In this document: piece after piece, positions 1 to 6,897 of the stretch
How the letters are laid out: the number at the start of each line of letters is the position of its first letter
Numbering within the stretch: position 1 is the first letter of the stretch
Assembly: GCA_023653245.1 (NCBI GenBank)
Contig: JAMNXK010000110.1
Span: 1 to 6,897, forward strand
Length of the DNA stretch: 6,897 nt
Origin: Tagaea sp.
Lineage (GTDB): Bacteria; Pseudomonadota; Alphaproteobacteria; CACIAM-22H2
Direction of reading: 5' to 3'
Notes under the pieces: model-generated
Told to the model about the DNA's origin: nothing
Seen by the model: only the letters and a program-made list of their open reading frames with translations
Databases searched by the model: none
Made by a program: the position numbers and the translations under genes

Positions 1-1
1 C

Positions 2-136
2 GAGGCGCGCTGGAACGCCTTCGCGAGCGATCCCGAGTGGATCGCGGCGCGCGCGGCCAGCGAGAAGGACGGCCCGATCGTCGCGCGGGTGGAAGCGTCG
101 ATCCTGCAGCCCACGCCCTACTCGGCCGTGACCTGA
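2..136 (+). CDS. NIPSNAP-family protein, C-terminal 44 residues (5' end outside window)
   Basis: An open frame enters from the left edge and stops at TGA 134-136. The visible peptide starts EARWNAFASDPEWIAARAAS and ends ILQPTPYSAVT. An aromatic/alanine-rich helix, then DPEW, then a VARVEASILQPTPYS strand resembles the C-terminal end of NIPSNAP domains (a ferredoxin-like alpha+beta barrel fold), which usually finish with an I/L-L-x-P-T-x-(F/Y)-S segment. The family's biochemical role is poorly defined in bacteria. The gene runs toward the hydratase operon (convergent, 57 bases between stop codons), so it is not part of that operon. The start, full length and partners lie outside the window. 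The family call rests only on a short tail and could change with the full sequence. Confidence 0.6.
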   Translation, partial: EARWNAFASDPEWIAARAASEKDGPIVARVEASILQPTPYSAVT

Positions 137-193
137 AAGCGCGCTTCGATCGGATTTGGCCCAGGCGAAGCCGCGCCAGCGCGTCTTGACGCT

Positions 194-910
194 TCAACGT
201 GCCGGAAAGCATTTCGGGACCATTCGTTGACGTCCCAATGGACCGGGGTTGACCGGACGATCGGGCGCATAGGGCTCGACGATCGCCGTTCCGATCATGG
301 CGTCGCGTGTCGCCAGCAGCGCCAACTCGGCCTCCGTCCGGCGTCCGGCATCGCGCGGCGCGAGCGGCAAGACGAGGTAGCGCATATCCGCGTTGGAATC
401 GTGAACCCGAACCTCGATGTCGAGCGGCACATCGAGTCCGAATTCTTTCAGAACGGCGCGGGGTTCGCGGACCGTCCGCGCGCGATAGGTCTTGGAGATA
501 TACCACCAAGGCGGCTGCCCCAGCAGCGAACGCGGATAGCACGAGCAAAGCGTGCAAACGATCACGTTGTGGATCTCGGCCGTGTTCTCCACGACGAGAA
601 GTTTCGCTTCCTTGATCGCGAAACCGAGTTCCGCGGCCGCCGCCGATCCGTCGGCCAGAAGACGCGCCTTGTAGGCCGGATCGAGCCACGCCCGCGCGAC
701 GATCTTGGCGCCCCATGCGACGTTCGGCGCTTCCAGCGCGGCGATCAATCGATCGGTGTCCGCCGGCGACAGCACGGCCCTCTCCAGGAGGATCTTGTGG
801 AGCGCCTCGGTCATCAGCGCATAGTAGTCGGCGCCGTCGTGCCCCTCGACCACGGGACGCGTGGGATCGGTCGCGACGGCCGGGATGCCGATGGGAGCGG
901 GCGCGCTCAT
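194..910 (-). CDS. nthA: Nitrile hydratase-type alpha subunit (thiocyanate hydrolase gamma-like), cobalt-type metal site
   Basis: This is the 238-aa catalytic subunit of a nitrile hydratase-family enzyme, which adds water to a C-N triple bond to give an amide; close relatives hydrolyse thiocyanate. The metal-claw motif C119-T-L-C122-S-C124 is intact; Thr rather than Ser after the first Cys is the pattern of cobalt-type members. Other conserved segments are seen: ARAWLDPAYKARLL (72-85), VVENTAEIHNVIV (106-118), EPRAVLKEFGLD (149-160), RYLVLPLAP (177-185) and TRDAMIG (201-207). After the claw it reads YPRSLLGQPPWWYISKTYR where common nitrile hydratases have YPW and WYKS, so the active-site pocket may be unusual. 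The start at ATG 910 gives a family-typical N-terminus, overlaps the upstream stop by 4 bases (ATGA), and has GGCGGAG upstream. The open frame continues upstream to 1129, but that extension overlaps the previous gene and is not conserved-looking. It is the last gene of the operon. The choice between nitrile hydratase and a thiocyanate hydrolase-type function is open. Confidence 0.93.
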   Translation of the reverse strand: MSAPAPIGIPAVATDPTRPVVEGHDGADYYALMTEALHKILLERAVLSPADTDRLIAALEAPNVAWGAKIVARAWLDPAYKARLLADGSAAAAELGFAIKEAKLLVVENTAEIHNVIVCTLCSCYPRSLLGQPPWWYISKTYRARTVREPRAVLKEFGLDVPLDIEVRVHDSNADMRYLVLPLAPRDAGRRTEAELALLATRDAMIGTAIVEPYAPDRPVNPGPLGRQRMVPKCFPAR

Positions 911-1206
911 GCCGTCGGCTCCGCCGGCGCCAGCCAGTGTTCGTAGACTTCGATCTCCAGCGTGTCGTACGCCGGCCCGGCGTAGCCGGACCAGAGTTCG
1001 GCCTGCGCGAAGTGCACGCGATACAGATCGACGGGCGGCAAGCCCGGACGCCCGTAGGCAAGGTCCTCGGGGTTCGGATACGCGCCGCAATGCCGTTCCA
1101 CGACACCGGTCTTGTGCCGCACGAACCACGGAATTCGAACATGCCCCGGCTTTCCGAGGTCGAGAACCGTCACGCGATCGCCGGGGCGGAATCGAGGCGA
1201 CGTCAC
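907..1206 (-). CDS. Nitrile hydratase beta subunit, C-terminal (SH3-like) half as a separate protein
   Basis: This 99-aa protein corresponds to only the C-terminal barrel domain of a usual nitrile hydratase beta subunit (about 210-230 aa). Recognisable parts are FRPGDRVTVLDLGKPGHVRIPWFVR (6-30), KTGVVERHCGAYPNPEDLAYG (32-52), LYRVHF (61-66), AELW (69-72) and YEHWLAPA (88-95), matching the family pattern of PGHTR, TGVVER, H/C-GAY-x-x-P, LY-x-V-x-F and ELW. The start is GTG 1206, four bases inside the previous gene (GTGA), with GGTGGAG just upstream; its stop overlaps the alpha start (ATGA). Splitting of beta into two genes is known from thiocyanate hydrolase (scnB-scnA-scnC), where ScnA is the C-terminal half, and three-subunit nitrile hydratases such as ToyJKL are known. 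The domain is expected to bind the alpha subunit and help close the active-site pocket in the cytoplasm. Confidence 0.88.
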   Translation of the reverse strand: MTSPRFRPGDRVTVLDLGKPGHVRIPWFVRHKTGVVERHCGAYPNPEDLAYGRPGLPPVDLYRVHFAQAELWSGYAGPAYDTLEIEVYEHWLAPAEPTA

Positions 1207-1556
1207 GGCTCCACCGATTTGCGCGCGTGATCCACGCGTTGGCCGCGCGCGGCGGCGATCGCGTCCATGCGTGCGCGAACCTCCTCGACCGACACCACGC
1301 CCTTTTCGGCGAGCAAAATAGTCAGCGCTTCGGCTCGCCGCTCGTAGAAGCCCAACGTTTCGTAGAGCGACTCCCCGAAACTCTCGAACACACGGCGGAT
1401 TTCGTCGAGCGAGACGGTCCGAGCCTTGCGCTCAAGCGCGCCCCGGATCGCCTCGGAAAGCTTCTGCCAGTCTTCGAAGGGACGTTCGACGCAGGCGACG
1501 GGTCCGCCGGGCAAGCCACCGATGTCGTGATAGCCGCGATAGGGCGGGCCGGACAC
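1203..1556 (-). CDS. Nitrile hydratase beta subunit, N-terminal half as a separate protein
   Basis: This 117-aa protein matches the N-terminal helical part of nitrile hydratase beta. The family signature HDIGG is at residues 9-13, followed by PFEDWQKL (23-30), SLDEIRRVFE, LGFYERRAEALTILLAEKGVVSVEEVRARM, the counterpart of the YYERW...LLVEKGVLT...L-x-ARM segment of normal beta chains. I chose GTG 1556 because it is the only standard start just ahead of HDIGG; the stop of the ATPase lies 5 bases upstream and GGGGAAG is the likely ribosome binding site. The same frame is open back to 2330, but that part is antisense-type shadow of the ATPase gene and is not protein-like. The stop TGA overlaps the GTG of the next gene. 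A nitrile hydratase activator (P14K type) also resembles this domain, but HDIGG and the position in front of the matching C-terminal half favour a structural subunit. Confidence 0.85.
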   Translation of the reverse strand: MSGPPYRGYHDIGGLPGGPVACVERPFEDWQKLSEAIRGALERKARTVSLDEIRRVFESFGESLYETLGFYERRAEALTILLAEKGVVSVEEVRARMDAIAAARGQRVDHARKSVEP

Positions 1557-1561
1557 GGCGC

Positions 1562-2404
1562 TCAGCTTCCCCGGACCGACGTCTGGAAAACGTCGAGCGC
1601 GCGCGCCTTCAAGGCGACGAAACGCGACTCGGTAAGCGTCGCCGGCGTCCGCGGTCGCGCAAGGTCGATGTCCATGAACTCGGCGATCCGAGAAGGCCTG
1701 CGCGTGAGCATCAGGAGTTTGTCGGCGAGATACACGGCCTCCTCCAGGTCGTGACTGACCAGCACGGTGGTCGTGCCGCGCTCGACCAGAACCTTCTGCA
1801 ATTGATCGCGCATGATCAAGGTCATTTCGTAGTCGAGAGCGGAGAACGGTTCGTCGAGGAACAACACTTCCGGGTCGATCACCAACGAGCGCATGATCGA
1901 CACGGTCTGCTGCTGGCCGCCGGACATTTGGTAGGGATAGCGATGGAGGTCGAACTTGAGGTCGAATCCGGCCGCGAGCGCTTCGATCCGCCGCGTCCGC
2001 TCCGCCTTGGGCACGCCCATCAGCTTGAGCGGATAGTGGATGTTGTCGATGGCGCGCAGCCAAGGAAACAGGGCCTCGCGGTAGTTCTGGAACACGTAGC
2101 CGATGCGCGTTTCGCCGATCGTCTTGCCCTCGAATAGAATCTGACCGCGCTCGAACGGCGTCAAGCCCGACACGATGTTGATGAAGGTCGATTTCCCGCA
2201 GCCGTTCGGCCCGAACACCGACACGATCTTGCCCTTGGGAAGATCGATGTCGAATCCGACATAGACGGGATTGCCGTCGAACGCCTTTTCGAGGCCCCGC
2301 ACCGTGATGTGCGTGCCGGGCGCGAACCACCGCAAGTTCGGCCGTGCGGTCGCCCCGCCGCCCCCGGCCGGCTCTTCGGCGCGGCGTTGCGCCCGCACGC
2401 TCAT
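1562..2404 (-). CDS. ABC transporter ATPase, nitrate/sulfonate/taurine importer type
   Basis: This 280-aa protein energises the importer encoded by the two upstream genes. Walker A is GPNGCGKST (65-73), Q-loop Gln106 in VFQNYREALFPWL, signature MSGGQQQ (160-166; Met replaces the usual Leu), Walker B VLFLDEP (180-186) with catalytic Glu185, D-loop SALD (188-191) and switch His218. The YREALFPWL and DYEMTLIMRD-QL segments are characteristic of the SsuB/TauB/NrtD-like group. The start at ATG 2404 overlaps the stop of the binding-protein gene (ATGA), implying translational coupling; there is no strong ribosome binding site of its own. The first 30 residues, rich in Arg, Ala and Gly, extend beyond the usual family start. 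The beta N-half gene begins 5 bases after the stop, so importer and hydratase genes are physically joined in one transcription unit. Substrate specificity cannot be told from an ATPase. Confidence 0.95.
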   Translation of the reverse strand: MSVRAQRRAEEPAGGGGATARPNLRWFAPGTHITVRGLEKAFDGNPVYVGFDIDLPKGKIVSVFGPNGCGKSTFINIVSGLTPFERGQILFEGKTIGETRIGYVFQNYREALFPWLRAIDNIHYPLKLMGVPKAERTRRIEALAAGFDLKFDLHRYPYQMSGGQQQTVSIMRSLVIDPEVLFLDEPFSALDYEMTLIMRDQLQKVLVERGTTTVLVSHDLEEAVYLADKLLMLTRRPSRIAEFMDIDLARPRTPATLTESRFVALKARALDVFQTSVRGS

Positions 2405-3396
2405 GCGCCGATTTCCGCGGGCTTGAGGATGATTTCGCGCACGTTCATGGGCGTGCGCAGCGCGCCCTCCGAGGAGAACACGTCGACCAGCGCCTGATAG
2501 GAGCGCAGATCGACGTCGTTGAGATCGCGCCACGCGCGCAAATACGGTTGCGCGACGATCTCGACCTGCGCCGCCTGCACGGCCGTGTACTTGGGCAGGA
2601 TCGCGCGGTGCTTGACGTAATCGTTTTCCGCCATCCGCGTGGCTTCGTCGAGGACCTGCACGACGCGGCGCGCCACGGCCGGTCGATCCTTGATGAACTT
2701 GGTGGTCAGCAGCGACACGCCCGAATAGAACGGGTCCGAGATCACCGAAGCGACGGGATTGGTCATCGCGCGCTTGGCCTCGCCCAGCGCCGTCACGATC
2801 GATCCCACCGGTTCGAGCGACAGCGTCGCGTCGACGGTGCCGGCGATGACCGCCTGGACCTGCAGACCGACGGCGAGTTCGACGAGGCGCACGTCGCGAT
2901 CGGGATCGAGGCCCGCCTTGCGCACCATATGGCGCGAGATCGTCCGCCATTGGATGCCCGGCAGGTGCCCGAGCGACTTGCCGCGCAGATCGGCGAACGT
3001 GCGGATGGGGGAATTGTTCGCGACGATGAGAGCGTCGTTGATCCGGTTGACCGCGACGCCGCCCCCTTGAAGGCCGAAGACCTTGAACGTCCCGGGAAAC
3101 TGCGACTCCGCCAGAACCGAGATTCCGGCCGCGGCGCCGGGCGCGCCGCAATCGGCGCGATTGGCGACCAGACTGTCGATGATCTGGTTGGGCGCTTGGA
3201 AGCGCGCGGACTCGACGTCGATGCCCGCACGCTCGAACAGCTTTTCCTCCAGCGCCACATAGTAGGCGAAGGTCTGCATGATCGGCAGCCAGGAGATCGT
3301 CACCTTGTCGCGCGCCTGGGCGAGGGCGGGGCTCGCCAGGCCGCTCAAGAGCGCGCTCGCGCCGATGCCCGCCAGTACTTCGCGCCGTTTCGTCAT
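2401..3396 (-). CDS. ABC transporter periplasmic substrate-binding protein (SsuA/TauA/NMT1-like) with Tat-type signal
   Basis: This 331-aa protein is the extracytoplasmic receptor of the importer. Residues 1-26 form a signal peptide: KRREVLAG at 3-10 gives a twin-arginine motif, a hydrophobic stretch runs 11-21 and ALA at 24-26 precedes the likely cleavage before Gln27. The mature part follows the SsuA/NMT1 pattern: a first strand with ISWLPIMQTFAYYVALEEKLFERAGIDV, NQIIDSLVANRAD at 70-82, TFADLRGKSLGHLPG at 133-147, then GLDPDRDVRLVEL and a second lobe with AVIAGTVDATLSLEP. Such proteins bind small compounds such as sulfonates, nitrate, ureides, pyrimidine precursors or nitriles; the ligand cannot be assigned. 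Start ATG 3396 has AGGAGA 5 bases upstream. It lies 26 bases after the permease stop and overlaps the ATPase start by 4 bases. Confidence 0.93.
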   Translation of the reverse strand: MTKRREVLAGIGASALLSGLASPALAQARDKVTISWLPIMQTFAYYVALEEKLFERAGIDVESARFQAPNQIIDSLVANRADCGAPGAAAGISVLAESQFPGTFKVFGLQGGGVAVNRINDALIVANNSPIRTFADLRGKSLGHLPGIQWRTISRHMVRKAGLDPDRDVRLVELAVGLQVQAVIAGTVDATLSLEPVGSIVTALGEAKRAMTNPVASVISDPFYSGVSLLTTKFIKDRPAVARRVVQVLDEATRMAENDYVKHRAILPKYTAVQAAQVEIVAQPYLRAWRDLNDVDLRSYQALVDVFSSEGALRTPMNVREIILKPAEIGA

Positions 3397-3422
3397 TTCG
3401 GTCTCCTGTTTGCGGTTGGTTG

Positions 3423-4235
3423 TCAGCCCCGGCCGGCCCAGTGGACGAGCCACTTCTCCAGGGCGAGGAAAACGAGGTTGAGCCCGTAGCCGAGCACGCC
3501 GGAGACCAGAATGGTCCCGTAGAGCTGGGGCAAGTCGAAGGTGATCTGACTGTCGATGATCCGTTTGCCCAGTCCGTCGTCCGAGCCGATGAACATCTCC
3601 GCCACCACGATCACGACGAGCGCGAGCGACACGGCCGTGCGCAAGCCGACGAAGGTCTGCGGCAGGCATTCGAAGAACATGACGTCCCGGAACACGCGAA
3701 ACCGCGACGCGCCCATCACGGTTGCCGCGAGAATTCGGGTCTGACGGGCGTTCATGACGCCGTAGGCGACGTTGAAGAGCACGACGAGCCATGCGGCGAA
3801 CGCGGCGACGGCGATCTTGGAGAAATCGCCCAGGCCGAAAATGATCATGAAAAGCGGGAACATCGCCGTGGCCGGGGTCGAGCGGAAAAAGTCGATCAGG
3901 AACTCGATCGAACGGTAAACCCGCTCGTTCGCGCCGATCATGATCCCGAGCGGCACGCCGAAAACGGCGGCGAGGCCGAACGCGTGCAACGTGCGCCACA
4001 GCGTGCGGACGAAATCCTCGGCCAGTCCGCCGCTCGCCGTATTCGTCCAGATCGAGTGAAGCGTGCGGACCGGCGACGGCAGAAGCCGCGGATTGACCCA
4101 GCCCATCGTATGCGCGGCGTACCACACGGCGAACAAGGCCACGGGGCCGATCGCCATCCAAACCCAACGCTTCGCGACGATTGTATGCACTTTATCGGCC
4201 CAGCCACGCCCCTTACCCGCCCAATTTCTGGGCAC
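3423..4235 (-). CDS. ABC transporter permease (SsuC/TauC-like, binding-protein-dependent)
   Basis: This integral membrane component has 270 aa from the chosen start. Hydrophobic segments occur around residues 26-45, 87-103, 124-137, 141-160, 201-216 and 239-258, giving about six helices. The ATPase-contacting EAA-type loop is LAATVMGASRFRVFRDVMFF-ECLPQTFVGLR (about 169-199), with the conserved Gly, Phe/Val and LP positions. Just ahead of helix 1 is the usual NPRLLPSP (48-55) region. I chose GTG 4235 because a sigma-54 promoter match upstream predicts transcription from about 4271, leaving a 36-base leader; no ribosome binding site is strong. GTG 4190 (255 aa) and ATG 4157 are alternatives, while GTG 4298 would lie upstream of the predicted transcription start. 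It is the first gene of the six-gene operon. The large antisense extension over the divergent gene is not coding. Confidence 0.9.
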   Translation of the reverse strand: MPRNWAGKGRGWADKVHTIVAKRWVWMAIGPVALFAVWYAAHTMGWVNPRLLPSPVRTLHSIWTNTASGGLAEDFVRTLWRTLHAFGLAAVFGVPLGIMIGANERVYRSIEFLIDFFRSTPATAMFPLFMIIFGLGDFSKIAVAAFAAWLVVLFNVAYGVMNARQTRILAATVMGASRFRVFRDVMFFECLPQTFVGLRTAVSLALVVIVVAEMFIGSDDGLGKRIIDSQITFDLPQLYGTILVSGVLGYGLNLVFLALEKWLVHWAGRG

Positions 4236-4281
4236 CCGCCGTCTGGCCGAGCGGGGAACGCATCGACCGGCGGCGAATGTC

Positions 4282-4297
4282 AGCAAGACGGATGCCA
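4282..4297 (-). promoter_or_regulatory. Putative sigma-54 (-24/-12) promoter for the importer-hydratase operon
   Basis: Read on the - strand, 4297 to 4282 is TGGCATCCGTCTTGCT. It agrees with the sigma-54 consensus TGGCACG-N4-TTGCW at 10 of 12 defined positions, including the invariant GG and GC with exactly 10 bases between them. The predicted transcription start is near 4271, about 36 bases before the chosen permease start codon. Sigma-54 promoters need an enhancer-binding activator such as NtrC; I see no convincing NtrC palindrome in the neighbourhood, so the activator is unknown. Confidence 0.62.
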
Positions 4298-4308
4298 CGA
4301 TCCCGGAA

Positions 4309-4324
4309 AGGCATGAAGCTTGCT
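4309..4324 (+). promoter_or_regulatory. Putative sigma-54 (-24/-12) promoter for the biuH-like gene
   Basis: On the + strand 4309-4324 is AGGCATGAAGCTTGCT. GG (4310-4311) and GC (4322-4323) are separated by exactly 10 bases, and 10 of 12 consensus positions fit TGGCACG-N4-TTGCW. Transcription would start near 4335, giving a 27-base leader that contains the GAGGAGG ribosome binding site at 4349-4355. Its outer edge is only 11 bases from that of the opposing promoter, so both could be driven from one activator site. That two such matches point outward in the single divergent intergenic region makes chance less likely. Confidence 0.6.
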
Positions 4325-4361
4325 GATCCACGCGCCGAACAACGGAACGAGGAGGCCCCAA

Positions 4362-5039
4362 ATGGGCGCCATTCCCGCAGACCCTTACGCCTGGCCGTTC
4401 GACGGCGACATCTCGCGCGCGAACACCGCGCTGATCGTCATCGACATGCAGACCGATTTCTGCGGCAAAGGCGGCTACGTCGACGTCATGGGTTACGATC
4501 TTTCGCTGACCCGCGCGCCGATCGAGCCCATCAAATCGGTCCTCGCGACCATGCGCGCGAAGGGCTATTGGATCATCCATACCCGCGAGGGACATCGGCC
4601 CGATCTATCGGACTTGCCCGCGAACAAGCGATGGCGCTCGCGCAACATCGGCGCTGGGATTGGCGACCCCGGCCCTTGCGGCAAGATCCTGGTGCGCGGC
4701 GAACCGGGGTGGGAGATCATCGAGGAGTTGGCGCCGTTGCCCGGCGAAACGATCGTCGACAAACCGGGCAAAGGTTCGTTCTGCGCCACCGATCTCGAAC
4801 TGATCTTGCGTCAGCGCGGCATCCGCAATCTGGTGCTGACGGGCATCACAACAGACGTATGCGTGCACACGACGATGCGCGAAGCGAACGACCGCGGATT
4901 CGAATGCCTGCTGCTTTCCGATTGCTGCGGGGCGACGGACCACGGCAACCATCTCGCGGCCATCAAGATGGTCAAGATGCAAGGCGGCGTTTTCGGCACG
5001 GTCTGCGACTCGCGCGCGCTGATTGCGGCGTTGCCGTAA
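4362..5039 (+). CDS. biuH: Biuret amidohydrolase-like cysteine hydrolase (isochorismatase-like superfamily)
   Basis: This 225-aa cytoplasmic enzyme belongs to the isochorismatase-like hydrolases that cleave ureide/amide C-N bonds. The Asp-Lys-Cys triad is visible as D28 in [12 protein letters not shown]134 in [10 protein letters not shown] and C167 in [10 protein letters not shown]. Its spacings (106 and 33 residues) equal those I recall for the characterised Rhizobium biuret hydrolase BiuH (D36, K142, C175). The remembered BiuH segments [68 protein letters not shown] and [16 protein letters not shown] are also nearly identical here. ATG 4362 is chosen over the in-frame TTG at 4320 because GAGGAGG (4349-4355) sits 6 bases before it and a sigma-54-like promoter fits. 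BiuH converts biuret to allophanate and ammonia. Guanylurea hydrolase and ureidoacrylate hydrolase (RutB) are related alternatives. The gene is divergent from the importer-hydratase operon, suggesting a shared pathway. Confidence 0.88.
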
Positions 5040-5051
5040 GCGTCGGAACCT

Positions 5052-5106
5052 TGGTGCCCCAGGCCGGACTTGAACCAGCACGCCCTTGCGGGCAACAGAT
5101 TTTGAG
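5052..5106 (-). other. 3' half of a tRNA-Leu(CAA): probable attachment-site remnant
   Basis: Read on the - strand from 5106 to 5052 this is a tRNA truncated at the anticodon loop. Visible in order: loop CTCAAAA (anticodon CAA), TCTGT of the anticodon stem, a class II variable arm with GCCC-GCAA-GGGC, T arm GCTGG-TTCAAGT-CCGGC, acceptor strand CTGGGGC, discriminator A and encoded CCA. The long variable arm plus A at the discriminator indicates leucine. The 5' half is missing: the bases before the loop (CGCCG) cannot pair with TCTGT, and no GCCCCAG acceptor partner follows in the expected place. A 3' tRNA fragment of this kind is the classic scar left at the far end of an element integrated by a tyrosine recombinase. 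It lies 12 bases after the biuH stop, in opposite orientation. By the usual geometry the element would be on the higher-coordinate side. Confidence 0.72.
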
Positions 5107-5315
5107 CGGCGTTGGAAACCGCGCATGCTCAAGGACTTAACCGTAAGCCCCTGAAAATCAAGTTACCCAGGTATAACCCGGTATACCGGGGTATATGGCG
5201 TCTTTGCGCGCGCGTGTCCCAAATCTGGCCCAGCCTGGTAGCGACAGGCTTCGAGAACATCAAAATAAATACCACACCAAAACTGTAAGATTGCGATGCC
5301 CCTAGATCCGGCCGT
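5107..5315. other. Non-coding junction region between the tRNA fragment and the solute-binding gene
   Basis: I see no credible gene in these 209 bases. They hold the three GGTATA repeats described separately, a sequence CTGAAAATC (5151-5159) that is an 8-of-9 inverted match to GATTTTGAG (5098-5106) at the tRNA break point, and an AT-rich patch at about 5258-5290 that contrasts with the GC-rich genes on both sides. No clear hairpin-plus-T-run terminator is seen for either the biuH gene or the solute-binding gene. The composition shift and repeats fit the end of an integrated element. Confidence 0.5.
5170..5199 (+). repeat. Three tandem GGTATA-headed 10-bp units (phased direct repeat)
   Basis: GGTATAACCC, GGTATACCGG and GGTATATGGC follow each other without gaps at 5170, 5180 and 5190. 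Each begins with GGTATA, and the centre one contains the palindrome GGTATACC. A 10-bp period puts the units on one face of the DNA, as expected for cooperative binding of a protein. The array starts 64 bases from the broken anticodon loop, so arm-type integrase or excisionase binding sites are a reasonable reading. An operator for an unrelated regulator is the alternative. Confidence 0.6.
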
Positions 5316-6500
5316 TCACGCCGTCGTCGCATCCGGCGTAATGTCCCCGGCGGGGGACGCGAGAGCCGATGCCCATGTTTTTCTGATCGCGTCCATGCGG
5401 GCTTGGCCAGGCAGATCCAAGAACTCGCGCCCGAAGATGGCGCCCAAGCGGTGTTGAATGCCGATATAGCCTGTAAATCGCGGGCGGACCCAGGCGGCTT
5501 CGACGGTCGAAACCGTTTCTTGGAAGGCGTTGCCGAAGAGCGCGTTGGACCTCGCGTCCCGCCACGCTTCAACGCGGCCCGGCTGCCCATGGTTCGCCGC
5601 GAAAATCTCCATCTGCACCGGGGCCGCCGCGACGAACGACACGAAACGCGCCGCGGCTTCGGGCGCCCGGCAACCGGCGGTCACGCCCAACCCCGTTCCG
5701 CCGAGGACCGATCCGCGATGATGCGGCGCCGAGGGGCCGGGGAAAGCGCCGAACGCGAGCGGCTTGGCGAAGTCGCGCTCCGCATGGGTCAAGTAGGCAT
5801 AGGCCGCCGGGCAGAAGACGATCTCGTCGCCCGCTTGCATGGCTTCGTGCAGTTGGATCGCATTTTGGGCCCAGCTGGACGGATGAACATACGGGAGAAT
5901 TCTGAGGAGTTGGCCGGTCGCCTCGTCGAGAACGCGCCGATCGATGGGATCGGCAAGCGGGTCCGCCGCGAAGGGCGCGCCGAGATTCGCGCACAGCGCG
6001 GCAAGCACGAGAAACCCATGCGGATTGAGGCACGCGAGCCCCAGCCATTTCCCCCGAAACCGCAGGCGGCGGCCGAGATCGACGACCTGATCCCATGTGG
6101 AGGGCGGCGGACCGAACTCGGCGAGTAGGTCTGCCCGATACACCGCCGTTTGCGTGGCGCCGTCGACGGGCACGCCCCAAATCGACCCGCCATAGCGATA
6201 GCTGGCGAGAGACGCGCCGACGAAGTCGCCGTCCCGGAGATCCGGCAGGAACTCGTCGGCCGGCCGGAACAATCCGGAGGCCCGGATCGATCCGCAGTAC
6301 GGATGGTCGAACACCACGAGATCGTAACGTTTCGTGACGCCGCCGCCGAGCGCATGCTCGAACCCGGCCAGCGACTGCACGTCCCATTCGATGTCGATCT
6401 CGGGCGCGATTTCTTGAAAAGCGCGCGTCGCCGCGATCATCGGGGCCGTCGCGCGCCGATGCGCCCAGTTGAGACCACGCAGAGCGATCTTCGCCGCCAT
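5316..6500 (-). CDS. Extracellular solute-binding protein family 1-like, without signal peptide
   Basis: The 394-aa protein has the layout of family 1 (sugar/polyamine type) binding proteins: a first lobe with MIAATRAFQEIAPEIDIEW (21-39), the hallmark strand YDLVVFDHPYCG (59-70), IWGVPVDGATQTAVYRADLL (107-126), PPSTWDQVVDLGRRL (132-146), and a second lobe with GDEIVFCPAAYAYL and an Ala-rich PEAAARFVSFVAAAP. The N-terminus, MAAKIALRGLNWAHRRATAP, has no hydrophobic signal segment, so export by Sec or Tat is not evident. A group of such signal-less homologues beginning L-(K/R)-G-(M/L)-x-W-x-H-x-R is known to me from proteobacterial catabolic clusters; their location and role are unclear. Start ATG 6500 has AGGGG upstream and follows the stop of the dehydrogenase gene by 4 bases, so the two are co-transcribed. 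No permease or ATPase for it is in the window. Confidence 0.85.
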   Translation of the reverse strand: MAAKIALRGLNWAHRRATAPMIAATRAFQEIAPEIDIEWDVQSLAGFEHALGGGVTKRYDLVVFDHPYCGSIRASGLFRPADEFLPDLRDGDFVGASLASYRYGGSIWGVPVDGATQTAVYRADLLAEFGPPPSTWDQVVDLGRRLRFRGKWLGLACLNPHGFLVLAALCANLGAPFAADPLADPIDRRVLDEATGQLLRILPYVHPSSWAQNAIQLHEAMQAGDEIVFCPAAYAYLTHAERDFAKPLAFGAFPGPSAPHHRGSVLGGTGLGVTAGCRAPEAAARFVSFVAAAPVQMEIFAANHGQPGRVEAWRDARSNALFGNAFQETVSTVEAAWVRPRFTGYIGIQHRLGAIFGREFLDLPGQARMDAIRKTWASALASPAGDITPDATTA

Positions 6501-6504
6501 TTCG

Positions 6505-6897
6505 CTACCCCTGCATCGGCATATGCGCGCCGCCATCGACCCAGATATTCGTTCCGGTGATGAAGCCGGACGCTTCGCCGCACAACAGCAGGGCGAGACC
6601 CGCGACCTCGTGCGGCTGCCCGGCCCTGCCCATGGGATTCTCGGACTCGACGATGCGCGCCCACTCGGCCGCATCCGCGCGCCGGTGCCGGTTGCGCGGC
6701 GTGACGACAAGGCCCGGCGACAACGTATTGAACGTCACGCCCGAGCGCGCATGGATCTTCGCAAGGTTGCGCATGAGATTCTCCTGCGCGCTTTTCAACG
6801 CGCAATACAGCGACAAATCCGGACGCGGCGAGTTCTGGGTCGTGCTGCCGATTCCCAAGACCCGTCCCCATCCGCGCGCCGCCATCGGCGGCACGGC
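6505..6897 (-). CDS. Short-chain dehydrogenase/reductase (SDR), C-terminal part (5' end outside window)
   Basis: The visible 130 residues cover the catalytic half of an SDR, an NAD(P)-dependent oxidoreductase of the Rossmann fold. The catalytic Ser in GIGSTTQ, Tyr in LSLYCALK and Lys four residues later are present, with 13 residues between Ser and Tyr as usual. These are followed by FNTLSPGLVVTP (counterpart of VNAISPG), GRAGQPHEVAGLALLLCGEASGFITGTNIWVDGGAHM, the standard C-terminus. The nucleotide-binding TGxxxGIG part is beyond the right edge. Substrate is unknown. The gene precedes the signal-less binding-protein gene by 4 bases in the same operon, which suggests a catabolic cluster continuing to the right. 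Confidence 0.93.
   Translation of the reverse strand, partial: AVPPMAARGWGRVLGIGSTTQNSPRPDLSLYCALKSAQENLMRNLAKIHARSGVTFNTLSPGLVVTPRNRHRRADAAEWARIVESENPMGRAGQPHEVAGLALLLCGEASGFITGTNIWVDGGAHMPMQG

Follow-up and report, generated by a model that had tools for sequence, protein, structure and literature searches.

A seven-gene cassette in Tagaea

We analyzed a 6,897-nucleotide stretch of DNA from the alphaproteobacterium Tagaea sp. (assembly GCA_023653245.1, contig JAMNXK010000110.1, positions 1 to 6,897), referred to here as the window. It contains a seven-gene cassette in which six minus-strand genes encode the permease, substrate-binding protein (SBP), and ATPase of an ABC importer and the β-N, β-C, and α parts of a split nitrile hydratase (NHase), with a biuH gene diverging from them (Table 1). 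A preliminary description of this DNA had proposed that the importer, the hydratase, and a BiuH-like hydrolase form a utilization system for cyano-ureides such as cyanourea or cyanoguanidine. Profile searches place the gene parts where that description had them, and the 5-base gap by which it joined the hydratase genes to the importer genes is real. Its BiuH-like neighbor scores as a true BiuH, and the matching promoter that it assigned to this gene is one of two divergent −24/−12 sites. A structure search confirmed an SsuA-like fold for the SBP, a fold that does not indicate the ligand; against the aliphatic sulfonate-binding SsuA model TIGR01728, the protein scores 98.3 bits, below the cut-off of 163.5.

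Table 1 Features of the cassette, in window coordinates
Feature	Position	Strand	Evidence
Split nitrile hydratase, α subunit	194–910	−	PF02979, 232.4 bits (cut-off 27.2); PDB matches are Co-type NHases
Split nitrile hydratase, β C-terminal half (β-C), separate protein of 99 aa, GTG start	907–1206	−	PF02211, 74.2 bits (cut-off 27.7)
Split nitrile hydratase, β N-terminal half (β-N), separate protein, GTG start at 1556	1203–1556	−	PF21006, 46.8 bits (cut-off 21.5)
5-base gap from ATPase stop codon to β-N GTG start	1557–1561	−	
ABC transporter ATPase, NitT/TauT/SsuB type	1562–2404	−	PF00005, 98.8 bits
Periplasmic substrate-binding protein, NitT/TauT type, SsuA-like fold	2401–3396	−	NMT1 domain and SsuA fold
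ABC transporter permease, start at GTG 4235 or 4190	3423–4235	−	PF00528, 74.5 bits
σ54-type −24/−12 promoter-like site facing the importer/hydratase operon, TGGCATCCGTCTTGCT	4282–4297	−	
σ54-type −24/−12 promoter-like site facing biuH, AGGCATGAAGCTTGCT	4309–4324	+	
BiuH, biuret amidohydrolase, 225 aa	4362–5039	+	NF050097, 421.9 bits (cut-off 370); residue table

The cassette recurs in other genomes

A scan of public genomes with β-C returned five loci, four of which (L001–L004) carry all seven genes, with identities to the window of 83–89% for BiuH, 74–83% for the SBP, and 72–73% for α. The seven-gene divergon is present in eight other loci (L001–L004 and L137–L140), its end genes reaching the contig ends in L001 (α) and L138. 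In the fifth genome of the scan, G005, biuH-permease-SBP-ATPase runs into a contig end, and a different contig has the split hydratase close to its own end. We considered the divergent M20 neighbor at this hydratase locus (L005) as an alternative partner and set it aside, a misassembly or break being as likely given the BiuH–importer half at the end of the other contig. A further locus, L096, has the order permease-SBP-ATPase-βN-βC-α-BiuH-AtzF, the last gene encoding an allophanate hydrolase; all run in one direction with no divergent promoter pair, and a gene that we name LysR-like from its sequence lies upstream. Co-conservation of split hydratase, importer, and BiuH, the absence of which would have told against the earlier proposal, is thus found in eight divergent loci and in L096. 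Because the same gene set recurs in other genomes, the cassette lies far beyond chance, and we regard it as a real and recurrent unit that is probably nitrogen-regulated and catabolic.

The surroundings of biuH vary. One or two M20-type hydrolase genes follow it in Acetobacteraceae-type cassettes (L001, 1–2014; L003, 1–971; L109, 7031–9467), and the two tested belong to the hydantoinase/carbamoylase family; in L137, a DUF6925 gene (6248–7231) directly adjoins it. In the window itself, the cassette is adjoined at 5316–6897 by genes for a family 1/8 extracellular binding protein (5316–6500) and an SDR (6505–6897), apparently unrelated to it. By tblastn against the relatives' loci searched, the binding protein had no match above 45 bits, and the SDR had generic matches alone at ≈30–36% identity. 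At the other end of the window, a short coding tail occupies 2–136. The window contains no tRNA and no Rfam family at the gathering threshold, hence no guanidine riboswitch match.

Promoter-like sites between the two arms

A back-to-back pair of σ54-type sites separates the arms in 9 of the 10 divergent cassettes scanned (the window, L001, L002, L003, L109, and L137–L140; absent in L004, from Xanthobacter sp. YC-JY1), a degree of conservation consistent with a σ54 divergon. Markov-shuffled sequence totaling 1.29 Mb contained no such pair, and control loci totaling 411 kb contained a single one; for these scans, we built the score matrix from the consensus and fixed the cut-off and spacing after a first look. 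Simple inspection of four promoter regions for NtrC-type boxes yielded one half-site, in L137, and nothing more, and the 11 upstream regions of LysR-type or nitrilase-type operons (see below) contained no σ54 pair. Because σ54-type sites face both arms of the divergon, we infer that nitrogen limitation may control both.

A split nitrile hydratase with a distinct signature

The NHase domains PF02979, PF02211, and PF21006 fall in three separate genes, the layout of a split three-subunit enzyme. The α subunit has the cobalt-type claw motif CTLCSC (CTLCSCY), within the clade motif CYPRSLLGQPPWWYISK. It scores 220 bits against the NCBIfam equivalog for nitrile hydratase α (TIGR01323), below the cut-off of 249.85, and 170.3 bits against the thiocyanate hydrolase γ subunit (TIGR03887), below the cut-off of 291.45; on this comparison, we rejected membership among the thiocyanate hydrolases.

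Hydratases linked to this importer bear a distinct signature. Their β-N reads F-Y-[ER]-R-R (FYERR in the window) where canonical β subunits and those of the other split hydratases viewed mostly read Y-Y-x-x-W, and their α continues after the metal motif with GQPPxWY[IV]SK (GQPPxWYISK in the window clade). This signature, a change of Tyr to Phe and of Trp to Arg in the active-site region, was absent from the other split hydratases viewed. The changed β residues are presumably those equivalent to Tyr68 and Trp72 of the canonical subunit, near the substrate. A positive charge at the position of Trp72 would suit an anion, for example, deprotonated cyanourea. We also considered a link between the new Arg and the Arg pair of thiocyanate hydrolase and dropped the idea, since profile-match offsets put that pair nearer the Arg of an LDExRR motif. 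The cassette has no activator gene, which should be no obstacle because β-N acts as a metal chaperone in the three-subunit enzyme of Streptomyces canus, according to passages of PMC7329996.

The signature is carried by 17 rows including the window. In 13 of them, the importer belongs to the hydratase operon; the remaining four are L111, which meets a contig end; L144, where an importer–nitrilase module lies ≈4 kb off; L057; and L065. At L057 (4827–8871), the hydratase stands beside a formamidase gene and a different, possibly CmpA/NrtA-like, binding-protein gene, and the same genome has an importer–nitrilase module elsewhere (L141). At L065 (3922–5226), it lies within a 9 kb contig with no importer.

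Split hydratases by themselves are common, and most have no link to this importer. At an E value of 1e-15, β-C found matches in 9 of 398 Pseudomonadota genomes and in 100 of 200 Acetobacteraceae genomes. Among 28 loci (L057–L084), the β halves are separate, in different frames or with a stop between them, in 24, with no call in 4, and none of the 28 has an SBP match above 45 bits. These hydratases mostly carry YYERW-like motifs.

BiuH has the residues of a biuret enzyme

The window BiuH is 80% identical to the Rhizobium BiuH encoded on pRL10 and keeps the Asp36, Lys142, and Cys175 triad together with the substrate residues Phe41, Lys145, and Gln215. In the Rhizobium enzyme, according to passages of PMC5806882, these six residues act in catalysis or biuret binding, Lys145 and Gln215 bind biuret in the structure, and a Gln215Glu substitution cripples the use of biuret. 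Lys145 and Gln215 are kept in all 10 cassette copies checked (the window and nine more).

A cysteine hydrolase of pMET-2 has Tyr145 and Glu215 instead. By its position and its deaminase neighbor, we equate it with the guanylurea hydrolase that passages of PMC9800807 describe as having nearly no activity on biuret. Glu215 is likewise found in two hydrolases of Klebsiella, where position 145 is Asn or Thr. We took Glu215 as the mark of a guanylurea hydrolase, a rule of our own drawn from one enzyme that was itself identified by position and neighbor, and the window BiuH lacks it. The biuret and guanylurea branches therefore appear separable, as far as one characterized enzyme can tell, which would place the cassette in the biuret branch.

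One importer lineage with two nitrile-type enzymes

We used the SBP as a query to avoid selecting for hydratases. Matches at an E value of 1e-90 or better were obtained in 3 of 385 genomes of the class and 16 of 397 of the order, with G004 in both sets. The importer operon encodes a nitrile-type enzyme in every one of the 16 genomes with an SBP identity of 57% or more, a line drawn after the contexts had been seen. In nine, it is a split hydratase (L004, L096, L097, L137–L140, L148, and L149); in the other seven (L141–L147), it is a tandem nitrilase-family protein of ≈555 residues that is 51–53% identical to a Klebsiella carbon–nitrogen hydrolase over its length. The two copies tested, those of L146 and Klebsiella, contain two carbon–nitrogen hydrolase domains; the L146 copy is identical to a protein of Rhodobium orientis (P0241). 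The first domain has the Glu-Lys-Cys motifs (example, L146 6348–8021), and in L146 and L147, the catalytic Cys of the second is replaced by Gly (MMGYDG). Both of these loci read importer-nitrilase-AtzF, with a regulator 65–66% identical to that of L096. Three SBP matches fall below 57% identity, and their surroundings differ: L150 and L151 have other genes alongside, and L098 has two BiuH-like genes with AtzF. In this last locus (6633–11040; SBP identity, 47%), the two BiuH-like genes have Gly or Val at position 215 and the third gene is AtzF-like, perhaps another ureide pathway.

In the SBP tree, the hydratase-type rows fall into two groups, one of which adjoins rows of the nitrilase type (92/87, marginally below the tool's star). 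Three label changes are needed, at least two of them forced by starred branches; L150, L151, L098, and L004 are on long branches. Because the hydratase-type rows are split in this way, the tree suggests an exchange of enzymes within a single lineage of importers.

BiuH and AtzF across genomes

A nitrile hydratase and an amidase together do the work of one nitrilase. By the logic of such a swap, hydratase-type genomes would need BiuH, nitrilase-type genomes would not, and both would need AtzF. In the sampled order, BiuH is present in all seven hydratase-type genomes (over the cut-off in G004, G960, G1084, G1185, G1030, and G1043, and cut by a contig end in G1158), in two of seven nitrilase-type genomes (G100 and G389), and in 53 of 249 background genomes; AtzF is present in all 14 hydratase- and nitrilase-type genomes and in 89 of the 249. 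Fisher tests against the background give 2.9e-5 for BiuH in the hydratase type, 0.65 for BiuH in the nitrilase type, and 1.1e-6 for AtzF, and the two types differ in BiuH at 0.021, values that overstate significance, as the genomes include kin, the background overlaps the test set, and fewer candidates were scored per background genome. Of all 13 hydratase-type genomes seen, 12 have a BiuH over the cut-off and 1 has a truncated copy; the gene is importer-linked in 10 and unlinked in 3 (G863, G1030, and G1043). AtzF is over the cut-off in 12 of the 13, next to BiuH in L096 and elsewhere in the genome in 11 of the 12 others.

A predicted pathway for cyanourea and its alternatives

Taken together, these data incline us to read the cassette as a system that scavenges nitrogen from a small N-cyano compound, with cyanourea (NC-NH-CO-NH2) the most likely candidate. 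The NitT/TauT-type importer would take up cyanourea, the predicted cobalt-type split hydratase would hydrate its nitrile to biuret, BiuH would take one ammonia off biuret to leave allophanate, and allophanate hydrolase (AtzF) would free the rest of the nitrogen. Transcription of the two arms would start from σ54 promoters, in keeping with a response to nitrogen limitation. A single nitrilase-family enzyme would take the hydratase's place in related genomes and convert cyanourea directly to allophanate. The co-occurrence pattern fits hydratase plus BiuH standing in for a nitrilase, both routes yielding allophanate, and points to cyanourea. Of the preliminary proposal, then, the importer–hydratase–BiuH idea is strengthened by the L096 operon with AtzF, the nitrilase substitution, and the co-occurrence across genomes; its cyanoguanidine and guanylurea branch is not supported for this cassette, whose BiuH has the biuret-type residues, and we rejected cyanoguanidine as an on-pathway substrate (Lys145/Gln215 in the cassette BiuH versus Tyr/Glu in the guanylurea hydrolase). 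We give an even chance to the fuller statement that bacteria have a pathway dedicated to cyanourea, or to a related anionic N-cyano-ureide, with two interchangeable forms on a single importer lineage. One form would be a remodeled split cobalt hydratase with BiuH and the other a tandem nitrilase, one of whose domains is apparently dead; both would feed allophanate hydrolase, and the divergent form would be under nitrogen control.

Several observations weigh against the cyanourea pathway, in addition to the inflated Fisher values. Against the NCBIfam nitrilase model, the tandem protein scores 253 bits, far short of the cut-off of 500, and it could be an amidase. The signature hydratases of L057 and L065 do not adjoin this importer, and G1113 has a signature hydratase and no BiuH match. 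For L097, L148, and L149, BiuH is elsewhere in the genome and may serve another pathway; in G863, it lies within a rhizobial-type cluster with a BMP-type importer and formamidase. One genome, G100, combines the nitrilase module, a signature hydratase, and BiuH. No AtzF over the cut-off was found in G001, a 2.2 Mb assembly, or in the window, and AtzF is not specific to the cassette: G1198 and G1125, whose SBPs are distant and differently placed, have it too and lack a BiuH over the cut-off. The open-license literature searched does not record cyanourea as a nutrient in the environment.

Some of these points would fit an importer that carries biuret or another ureide, with the nitrilase-family protein an amidase replacing BiuH and the hydratase a side enzyme supplying biuret from some cyano compound. 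The tandem protein also matches N-carbamoylputrescine amidase, a carbamoylase, at 179 bits, and the five of seven nitrilase-type genomes without BiuH over the cut-off fit an amidase too. We nevertheless consider this unlikely: the hydratase operons without BiuH (L097, L148, and L149) and the division of the hydratase type into two groups in the SBP tree connect the importer with the nitrile step more than with biuret, and the three annotated biuH clusters that we viewed, from Rhizobium and Pseudomonas, use the different, BMP-type importer. The prospect is poorer still that two unrelated nitrogen-limitation operons lie back to back, with the hydratase acting on ordinary nitriles or thiocyanate and BiuH just sharing the promoter region. 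Co-regulation through the σ54-type sites on both arms could alone hold such operons together, and the three-subunit layout is that of thiocyanate hydrolase. However, L096 has the same genes with AtzF in one direction and no divergent promoter pair, biuH is retained though unlinked in G863, G1030, and G1043, and α scores better as an NHase than as a thiocyanate hydrolase.

Dicyanamide, hydrated twice to give cyanourea and then biuret, is a very improbable substrate. The chemistry allows it, and an anion would suit both the β-N Arg that replaces the canonical Trp and an SsuA/NrtA-like SBP, but one step of the tandem nitrilase would not take dicyanamide as far as allophanate, and we know of dicyanamide only as a man-made anion. 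Hardly credible, finally, is cyanoguanidine, hydrated to guanylurea for cleavage by an isochorismatase-like enzyme: such a pathway may exist elsewhere, as on Klebsiella wastewater plasmids where a canonical NHase and an importer occur together with a BiuH-like Glu215 hydrolase, but all 10 cassette copies are of the Lys145/Gln215 type rather than the Tyr145/Glu215 type of the pMET-2 hydrolase, which is almost inactive on biuret in the passages cited above, as BiuH itself is crippled by Gln215Glu.

If the cyanourea pathway is correct, nitrile hydratases would gain a defined natural role in supplying biuret metabolism, and an N-cyano nutrient could be assigned its importer, a choice of two enzymes, and a type of promoter. 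It would also bear on the fate of cyanamide-derived fertilizer chemicals in soil and wastewater. The signatures FYERR, GQPPxWYISK, and Gln215 versus Glu215 make the substrate predictions testable across genomes.

Comparison with known systems

In the open-license literature, no paper that we found joins nitrile hydratase and the breakdown of biuret in one pathway; PMC12625717 comes closest, listing the two gene names separately among nitrifier genomes. Nor did the titles and abstract openings searched there describe enzymes for cyanourea utilization, a search that would miss older work on dicyandiamide degraders.

The guanylurea hydrolase region of pMET-2 likewise combines an SsuA-type importer with an isochorismatase-like hydrolase. 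Unlike the window, it has no hydratase in that gene group and a Glu215 enzyme, and pMET-2 gave no tblastn match to the window SBP at an E value of 1e-3. The Klebsiella plasmids pRHBSTW-00973_4 and pRHBSTW-00973_5 carry a related importer (SBP 64%, permease 59%, and ATPase 51% identical) with the tandem nitrilase and, further on, a canonical NHase and a BiuH-like hydrolase. They differ from the window in their unsplit β subunit with an accessory protein, their Glu215 hydrolases, and a second importer. In one Klebsiella pneumoniae isolate from wastewater, two plasmids (L089, NZ_CP056226.1, 1644–19987; L153, NZ_CP056225.1, 3919–15563) have in common a stretch with a σ54-type regulator, the importer and tandem nitrilase, a second importer, the canonical NHase with its accessory protein, and the BiuH-like Glu215 hydrolase, which reads like a cyanoguanidine/guanylurea nitrogen module.

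The rhizobial biuret and cyanuric acid cluster (biuH, atzD, and atzF, for example, on pRL10) shares BiuH, at the 80% identity given above, and the allophanate route with the cassette. It differs in having a BMP-type importer, formamidase, and cyanuric acid hydrolase, and no hydratase was present in the stretches viewed. On the hydratase side, thiocyanate hydrolase (PDB 2dd4 and 2dd5) has the same three-part architecture of the NHase fold, although the window α is closer to NHase (220 versus 170 bits, the latter well under the thiocyanate hydrolase cut-off of 291).

Also close is the three-subunit NHase of Streptomyces canus (AnhD-AnhE-AnhA). With thiocyanate hydrolase, it means that a split β subunit is not undescribed, contrary to the preliminary description. 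As in the window, its β is split into two genes upstream of α, there is no activator gene, and the enzyme is of the cobalt type, as far as passages of PMC7329996 describe it. The same passages report that it turns acetamiprid, an N-cyano compound, into the amide IM-1-2, which a passage of PMC12646544 identifies as the amide of acetamiprid's N-cyano group. By contrast with the window, the main text of PMC7329996 mentions no ABC transporter, and the passages cited here contain no ureide hydrolase. A Streptomyces split NHase locus, L152, adjoins genes for an aquaporin and a nickel/cobalt transporter. The window clade bears the signature FYERR and GQPPxWYISK, which presumably sets it apart from the S. 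canus enzyme. Overall, the components of the cassette are of known kinds, and their combination and the predicted pathway are new to us.

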